A stretch of 64,000 nt of DNA from the NCBI GenBank assembly GCA_000383715.1, contig KB911840.1:1-64000 (forward strand). The letters run 5' to 3'. The translations under genes and the position numbers were made by a program. This document shows, piece by piece, positions 39,015 through 40,465 of the stretch (within the stretch, counting starts at the first letter, position 1; each line of letters starts with the position of its first letter). The notes beneath the pieces are model-generated. The model was not told the origin of the DNA, made no database searches, and saw only the letters and a program-made list of their open reading frames with translations. The DNA comes from Verrucomicrobia bacterium SCGC AAA164-E04. Its GTDB lineage: Bacteria > Verrucomicrobiota > Verrucomicrobiia > Limisphaerales > AAA164-E04.

Positions 39015-40094
39015 GTGATAAAGAATATCATATTCGACTGGTGCGGCACTTTGATGGACGACCTTCCTGCCGTTTGGAAGGCGACGTGTCAGGTTTTTGT
39101 AAAAGCAGGCGTATCCCCGCTTTCGCTCGAGGAATTTCGAAAGGAGTTTGAGTTGCCTTTTACCAAGTTCTACGACCGATACATCCCGGATGTGCCCATT
39201 GACCAGTTGGAGCGCTGTTTTCATGACGCTTTCAGCAGAGAACAGCACTCCGTGTCTCCCATGCCACACGCTGCATCTTTTCTGGATTTTTGCTCGGAGA
39301 ATCAGATCCGATCATTTGTGTTGAGCGCCATTCATCCACAGTATTTCCAAGTGCATGATCAAAAGTCAGGATTTGGATCTCATTTTGAAAAAATTTACAC
39401 CGGTGTATGGGATAAGCGGGAGAAGATTCATGCAATCATTTCAGCGCACGGATTGACTCCCGAGGAGACTCTTTACATAGGCGATATGGAGCATGACATT
39501 GAAACAGCGCATCATGGAGGCATGGCGGGCTGCGCCGTGCTGACCGGTTTCAAGGGTTTGGAGGCTCTCAAGCAGAGTCAACCGGAATTGATTGTAGAAC
39601 ATCTGGGAGAACTCAAGAGCCTTTTGGAAAAGACGTCCTTTGATCCGTTTAAAAAGGAGCAATCTCTGGTAAATATTTCCAACTCACCCTTTCCAATTCC
39701 AACCGTAGGCGCTTTGATTTTCAACCAGAACGATGAAGCGCTCATGATCCGTACGCACAAATGGTCGGACAAATGGGGGATTCCAGGAGGCAAGATTCAC
39801 ACAGGGGAATCCAGTCCAGACGCCCTGCGCCGTGAAATTCGCGAAGAAACCGCGCTGGAGGTGGATGATATCAAGTTCATTCTTGTTCAGGATGCCATTT
39901 CCCCCAGTGAATTCTATCGAGATGCCCATTTCCTGCTGTTGAATTACACCTGCCGGTGTCGGGGGGCGACTCCCAAGGTTGTTTTGAATGATGAAGCTCA
40001 GGAATGGTGCTGGGTCACCCTAGAGGATGCATTGCATCTGGATCTCAATCAACCGACCCAGATACTGGTTGAAGCTGTCTTAAACGAAAAATAA
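39015..40094 (+). CDS. HAD hydrolase-Nudix fusion protein
   Basis: The 359-residue protein joins two enzymes. Residues 1-205 are a HAD-type hydrolase: FDWCGTL (motif I), FVLSAIH (motif II) and YIGDMEHDIETA (motif IV). In motif I the usual second Asp is Cys (DWCGT). Residues about 225-359 are a Nudix hydrolase with the box G259-x5-E265-x7-R273-E274-x2-E277-E278, changed only in the final Gly (Ala280). It starts with GTG. folB begins 17 bases after the stop, so the two are probably one operon. Nudix and phosphatase activities are the two steps that turn dihydroneopterin triphosphate into dihydroneopterin, FolB's substrate. That role is inferred, not shown. Confidence 0.85.
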   Translation: MIKNIIFDWCGTLMDDLPAVWKATCQVFVKAGVSPLSLEEFRKEFELPFTKFYDRYIPDVPIDQLERCFHDAFSREQHSVSPMPHAASFLDFCSENQIRSFVLSAIHPQYFQVHDQKSGFGSHFEKIYTGVWDKREKIHAIISAHGLTPEETLYIGDMEHDIETAHHGGMAGCAVLTGFKGLEALKQSQPELIVEHLGELKSLLEKTSFDPFKKEQSLVNISNSPFPIPTVGALIFNQNDEALMIRTHKWSDKWGIPGGKIHTGESSPDALRREIREETALEVDDIKFILVQDAISPSEFYRDAHFLLLNYTCRCRGATPKVVLNDEAQEWCWVTLEDALHLDLNQPTQILVEAVLNEK

Positions 40095-40111
40095 TTCATT
40101 TTATCAAAGGC

Positions 40112-40465
40112 ATGAATGACATGATCGAAATCAATGACCTTGAAGTGCACTTCAAAGTCGGTGTTCCGGATGAAGAACGTGCAGTGGCTCAAAAACTGCT
40201 GATCACGATTCGATTATATCTGGATTTTGAGCAAGCTGCTTCCACGGATGATTTAAATCATACCATCGATTACTATCGCTTGACCCGTGATCTGGTTGAA
40301 TGGGGAAGCCATCGCGAGTGGAAGCTCATTGAGACACTGGCCTCTCATATTGCCGACTGGGTGCTGCGGGATTTTCAGCCTGCCAAGGTAGACATTCAGA
40401 TCAAGAAGTTCATCCTCCCGGACACCCAATTTGTGGGGGTCAGCATAGAGCGCGTGCGCAAATAG
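40112..40465 (+). CDS. folB: Dihydroneopterin aldolase
   Basis: The 117-residue FolB splits 7,8-dihydroneopterin into 6-hydroxymethyldihydropterin and glycolaldehyde for folate. It shows GVPDEERAVAQKLL, DYYRLTRDL, LIETLASHIADWVL and the catalytic Lys region IKKFILPDTQFVGV. ATGs at 40112 and 40121 are both possible. It follows the HAD-Nudix gene. No folP or folK was found in the window. Confidence 0.92.
   Translation: MNDMIEINDLEVHFKVGVPDEERAVAQKLLITIRLYLDFEQAASTDDLNHTIDYYRLTRDLVEWGSHREWKLIETLASHIADWVLRDFQPAKVDIQIKKFILPDTQFVGVSIERVRK

Follow-up and report, generated by a model that had tools for sequence, protein, structure and literature searches.

A HAD-Nudix fusion protein encoded next to folB in Verrucomicrobiota: a candidate for the two dephosphorylations ahead of dihydroneopterin aldolase

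In bacterial folate synthesis, no part of the route is less well assigned than the two dephosphorylations that separate GTP cyclohydrolase I from FolB. The gene for the pyrophosphatase acting on 7,8-dihydroneopterin triphosphate (DHNTP) has been described as missing from most genomes, and removal of the last phosphate is usually credited to a non-specific phosphatase (PMC1971073, PMC6451014). That a matching phosphatase gap is a live question in riboflavin synthesis is evident from a 2025 study (PMC12051542). In the literature searched, which covered few subscription papers, no description of a HAD-Nudix or HAD-FolB protein in folate synthesis was found.

The fusion gene and its proposed function

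The window, i.e. the whole stretch of 64,000 nucleotides that was analysed, is located on contig C3 of a 3.95 Mb genome bin (G000, 75% complete); of the named relatives, Pedosphaera and other Verrucomicrobia MAGs are closest to it. All data presented here come from one phylum, Verrucomicrobiota. The features of the locus are as follows.

39015-40094, + strand: HAD-Nudix fusion ORF with a GTG start, 359 aa
39015-39629, + strand: HAD domain, aa 1-205, candidate dihydroneopterin monophosphate phosphatase; HAD_2 fold according to Pfam, the AlphaFold2 model and the alignment
39036-39050, + strand: HAD motif I, D8-W-C-G-T12, with the nucleophile D8 and with Cys at D+2, where most homologues have Ser
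39414-39416, + strand: HAD motif III lysine K134, invariant (134/134)
39480-39497, + strand: HAD motif IV, G156-D-M-E-H160-D161 (GDMxHD); D157, H160 and D161 invariant (134/134)
39630-39692, + strand: variable linker between HAD and Nudix (alignment; low model confidence at aa 214-223)
39693-40091, + strand: Nudix domain, aa 227-359, candidate DHNTP pyrophosphohydrolase (Pfam; nearest structures NudI)
39789-39857, + strand: Nudix box, G259-L281; E265, R273, E274, E277 and E278 invariant in 100/100 homologous Nudix domains
40092-40094, + strand: stop codon of the fusion gene
40112-40465, + strand: folB, dihydroneopterin aldolase, 117 aa, 17 bp past the fusion gene (PF02152 and TIGR00525)

The initial annotation, which had reported a 359-aa protein composed of a HAD and a Nudix domain with folB following after 17 bp, was confirmed by Pfam, since HAD_2 (PF13419, 78.4 bits, aa 5-174), NUDIX (PF00293, 79.9 bits against a cut-off of 21.1, aa 229-346) and, for the neighbouring gene product, FolB (PF02152, 92.0 bits) all exceeded their cut-offs. 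The window FolB also passed the NCBIfam equivalog model TIGR00525 (77.8 against 72.15). The Nudix box (GGKIHTGESSPDALRREIREETAL), described as nearly complete, indeed matches the consensus GX5EX7REUXEEXGU with its catalytic residues, the only deviation being A280 in place of the last Gly, a position that is variable. It had been overlooked that motif I of the HAD domain reads DWCGT and thus is devoid of the second Asp (D+2). Upstream of the fusion gene, genes for CNNM, bioF and bioA lie on the opposite strand, while trkH starts approximately 210 bp past folB. Due to this arrangement, the fusion gene and folB look like a two-gene unit.

According to the proposed mechanism, FolE2 would form DHNTP, which the Nudix domain would cleave to dihydroneopterin monophosphate and pyrophosphate. 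The HAD domain would strip off the last phosphate via a phospho-Asp8, and the resulting dihydroneopterin would be passed on to FolB, the second product of the two-gene unit. Judging from the comparative data, it is quite likely that the Nudix domain is a DHNTP pyrophosphohydrolase and, with slightly less assurance, that the HAD domain is a dihydroneopterin monophosphatase. The combined statement, that the fusion gene codes for a bifunctional enzyme of folate synthesis, a pterin phosphohydrolase performing both dephosphorylations ahead of FolB, is probable as well, if a shade less so. The domains, the catalytic residues (intact in Nudix, mostly so in HAD), the conserved order HAD-(Nudix)-FolB and the recurrent fusion are seen in the sequences; what we infer from them is the nature of the substrates, which reaction comes first, any channelling and HAD catalysis with Ser or Cys at D+2. 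The two domains are strong candidates for two poorly assigned folate steps.

Linkage of the HAD family to FolB

In a scan of GTDB contigs with patterns reaching close relatives only, folB was located directly after the fusion gene in all 14 relatives detected (46-97% identity). A sample of 289 Verrucomicrobiota genomes contained 44 strong carriers (E < 1e-60), each of which also possessed FolB. In 36 of the 44, the HAD domain was fused to FolB or FolB followed on the same strand. At the level of the class, the family was present in 245 of 384 genomes and in 104 of 172 genera. Further loci were fetched, mostly one per genus, and 89 of them were classified: HAD-Nudix followed by folB (65), HAD followed by folB (7), HAD-FolB fused (3), HAD-Nudix-FolB fused (1) and loci without folB close by (13). 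Two loci of the last group stop at a contig end and one is a second copy. Duplication was also seen in G536, where one copy is HAD-Nudix with folB and the second a HAD alone (L197, L268). At a few of the downstream loci, one gene separates the family member from folB, with gaps of about 450-906 bp. Pooling of these loci with the earlier ones gave 113 of 134 members with FolB fused in frame or located on the same strand at most ~1 kb downstream, but since the pooled loci are not random (best-scoring ones plus one per genus), the phylum sample with its 36/44 provides a fairer estimate.

Across the 24 loci compared, HAD and FolB were the only constant elements, and no other gene cluster was found in more than nine related loci. 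Several neighbouring genes belong to Pfam families of unrelated function, and the neighbours vary between lineages. The 21 of 134 members without FolB nearby include those of a family with small genomes (f4, 2.2-2.5 Mb), in which a LOG-family gene neighbours the solitary HAD homologue, folB being located elsewhere. In three of four f4 genomes inspected, folB is part of an open frame of more than 300 aa, one of which was identified by Pfam as a cpYpsA-FolB fusion. There (L124:4276-5184, - strand), FolB is preceded by a circularly permuted YpsA SLOG domain (cpYpsA, 183.9 bits); a similar ORF of 303 aa is present on L125.

In one genus of family f3, presumably Akkermansia (genomes of 2.2-3.5 Mb), HAD and FolB form a single protein of about 330 aa. 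Genus g42 and f112 share this architecture. A quick maximum-likelihood search with 142 HAD domains gave a tree containing many open forks, on which the HAD-FolB label has to change four times, and at least three of these changes are forced by well-supported branches. Genus g245 comprises one genome with HAD-Nudix and folB and two with HAD-FolB, as if the Nudix domain had been lost in place. The Nudix domain is missing repeatedly among the HAD-FolB carriers. From the sequences compared, the constant partner of FolB is thus the HAD domain, the Nudix domain having apparently been lost repeatedly. The most complete form is encoded in the window's own family by G474 (L273), a 523-aa protein with HAD_2 (94.8 bits), NUDIX (78.3 bits) and FolB (71.6 bits) in that order, all over cut-off. 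Because this relative encodes the whole HAD-Nudix-FolB chain, the two-gene unit of the window can be regarded as a split form of that protein. Taken together, it is very likely that the family works with FolB.

These data bear out the earlier expectation that the fusion is not distributed randomly with respect to fol genes, given the 113/134 members linked to FolB and the existence of in-frame HAD-FolB and HAD-Nudix-FolB proteins. The idea that two consecutive dephosphorylations feed FolB was right in outline, but it had to be modified in so far as HAD-FolB is the constant unit, the Nudix domain is optional and the HAD motif is non-canonical. Likewise, the term 'all-in-one' supplier holds for part of the clade only, since the HAD domain is the conserved partner of FolB and the Nudix domain is absent from many HAD-FolB carriers.

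Active sites and structural relationships

The AlphaFold2 model of the fusion protein has a mean pLDDT of 89.6; its pTM of 0.59 leaves the relative placement of the domains uncertain. The best structural match of the HAD part was 2ah5 (Z 25.4, rmsd 2.1 over 204 residues), and the Nudix part is closest to the NudI structures 3oga and 6dt3 (27-29% identity). The HAD domain possesses the hallmarks of the HAD_2 superfamily, namely the Rossmann-like fold, the nucleophile D8, S/T104 of motif II, K134, D157 and D161. D8 and T12 are, like the motif III and IV residues listed above, invariant in all 134 members, and position 104 is Ser or Thr. By contrast, the Asp at D+2 expected for a canonical HAD phosphatase is lacking. 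Motif I of the family is DW[S/C]GT with Ser in 125, Cys in nine and Asp in none of the 134 members. In canonical HAD phosphatases, this second Asp of the DxD motif is the general acid/base, and the phosphatase activity of the HAD domain is therefore putative. D16 and H160, the His of motif IV, are also invariant, and both are retained in a sister group with the motif DWNGT. The sister HADs, found in other Verrucomicrobiota (L109-L116, e.g. L113:5296-5994), combine DWNGT with GD[TS]xHD and likewise have no Asp at D+2; a link to folB was not seen for them at these loci.

Among the HADs in hand, the motif IV His accompanied Ser, Cys or Asn at D+2 in 62 of 62 cases and Asp at D+2 in none of 12, a co-occurrence that may go back to a single event since these HADs form one larger clade. 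Phosphoserine phosphatase and P-type ATPases have Asn at the corresponding position of motif IV (GDGxND), and the latter, with DKTGT, also lack the Asp at D+2. In view of this precedent, phosphoryl-Asp chemistry would be possible in the present HAD, too, and the motif IV His perhaps takes over acid/base catalysis or phosphate binding.

It is conceivable, although unlikely, that only the Nudix domain performs the proposed chemistry, and that the HAD domain, catalytically dead or weak, serves as a scaffold or as a pterin-binding partner tethering the enzymes to FolB, while a non-specific phosphatase takes the last phosphate. The Ser or Cys at D+2 in 134/134 members, which would abolish the usual acid/base, fits this assumption. 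However, the invariance of D8, T12, K134, D157 and D161 is unusual for a dead domain, and it is the HAD and not the Nudix domain which is kept and fused to FolB. Moreover, in the HADs sampled, a substituted D+2 comes with a His in motif IV, which looks like a re-tooled site.

With still lower probability, FolB might act on dihydroneopterin monophosphate, and the HAD domain might clean up a by-product, glycolaldehyde phosphate or a related two-carbon phosphate. HAD-FolB proteins without Nudix do exist, and the HAD domain resembles phosphoglycolate phosphatases. The structural neighbours of the HAD domain include phosphonoacetaldehyde hydrolase (Z about 21), whose motif I is DWAGT. On the other hand, these structural matches are at the level of the fold only: the HAD domain scored 20.2 bits with the phosphonoacetaldehyde hydrolase model TIGR01422 (cut-off 220) and 40.2 bits with phosphoglycolate phosphatase models such as NF009695 (cut-off 225), both far under the cut-offs, and FolB passes the ordinary equivalog model.

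The folate pathway in carrier genomes

FolE2 (PF02649) was detected in 24 of 25 genomes tested, FolE (GTP cyclohydrolase IA, PF01227) in one only, and FolE2 presumably makes the substrate in nearly all of them. The latter genome is the carrier G241 (L136), with FolE1 in place of FolE2. FolK was present in 24 of the 25 genomes, the exception being the incomplete window genome. Two genomes, G113 and G197, are without HAD and FolB, yet have kept FolE2 and FolK; in the remaining members of their genus, HAD is fused to FolB. That both are absent together despite FolE2 indicates that the HAD domain goes with FolB rather than with FolE. G235 has kept FolB (L129:4636-5007) without a HAD gene, from which it can be concluded that another phosphatase can serve in some genomes.

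The pyrophosphatase step is less uniform. None of the 25 genomes contained a NudB over the NCBIfam cut-off, but as only one of 14 control genomes passed this cut-off, the absence is weak evidence. Matches to the NudB model below the cut-off occurred in all genomes, several being RppH-like or the fusion itself, which scored 22.9 bits with the NudB equivalog NF006961 (cut-off 103). A Nudix gene beside folK in G188 was considered as the missing DHNTP pyrophosphatase and discarded, its sequence being RppH-like (WQFPQGGIDDGE). No orthologue of the Nudix domain was found in the genomes with HAD-FolB fusions. Since the Nudix domain is missing in many HAD-FolB carriers, another enzyme must do the pyrophosphate step there. 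Outside the fusion, a Nudix orthologue was found in G190 only. It is flanked by a queE-like gene and, directly downstream, by a DHPS-like Pterin_bind gene, which is followed by a second Nudix gene (L108:4724-7310, - strand).

Nudix domains are often sanitising enzymes. The pair might serve pterin or nucleotide housekeeping near folate synthesis, e.g. the hydrolysis of oxidised or damaged pterin or guanine nucleotides, instead of a main step, a reading in keeping with NudI as the nearest structure, with carriers away from folB and with G235. Nonetheless, a stoichiometric pathway role agrees better with the fact that G113 and G197 lack FolB together with HAD and that in-frame fusion has recurred specifically with FolB, so that housekeeping appears rather improbable. 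An adjacency merely inherited by descent is hardly credible: all sampled members belong to one class and many loci are therefore not independent, but HAD-FolB persists while other neighbours change, and at least three origins of in-frame fusions plus the triple fusion already disfavour this explanation.

Returning to the pathway role, we tentatively suggest that the DW[S/C]GT/GDMxHD HAD family may be a dedicated dihydroneopterin monophosphate phosphatase, which would be the first for this step, that the motif IV His might replace the D+2 Asp, and that the HAD-Nudix-FolB polypeptide might run from DHNTP to 6-hydroxymethyl-dihydropterin in part of Verrucomicrobiota. Through its repeated fusion to FolB, the family makes the pathway gap accessible to cloning and assay. 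Besides a candidate for a natural trifunctional enzyme, it provides a HAD active site in which the acid/base is arranged differently, and it is relevant to how folate is made in a class rich in gut, soil and marine bacteria.

Of the known systems, NudB/FolQ shares the Nudix fold and box with the window protein, and the same reaction, DHNTP to the monophosphate, is proposed. The fol-gene neighbourhood is also common to the FolQ of L. lactis (PMC1971073). What separates the window Nudix domain from NudB/FolQ is its fusion behind a HAD domain and its closest structural relationship to NudI and not to NudB. The HAD domain has the fold (Z about 25), the nucleophile Asp, the motif III Lys and the motif IV acidic pair in common with HAD_2/phosphoglycolate-phosphatase-like HADs (2ah5, 3mc1), from which it differs by Ser or Cys at D+2, the invariant motif IV His and the fusion to Nudix and/or FolB. 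Non-specific HADs such as YigB have likewise been proposed for an unassigned phosphatase step in a GTP-derived vitamin pathway, riboflavin synthesis (PMC12051542). For those enzymes, however, neither fusion nor a dedicated role in the pathway is described, while the present HAD has a physical connection to the next enzyme. FolB of the window is an ordinary dihydroneopterin aldolase by the equivalog model, whereas in relatives, FolB forms the C-terminal part of HAD-FolB or HAD-Nudix-FolB proteins.
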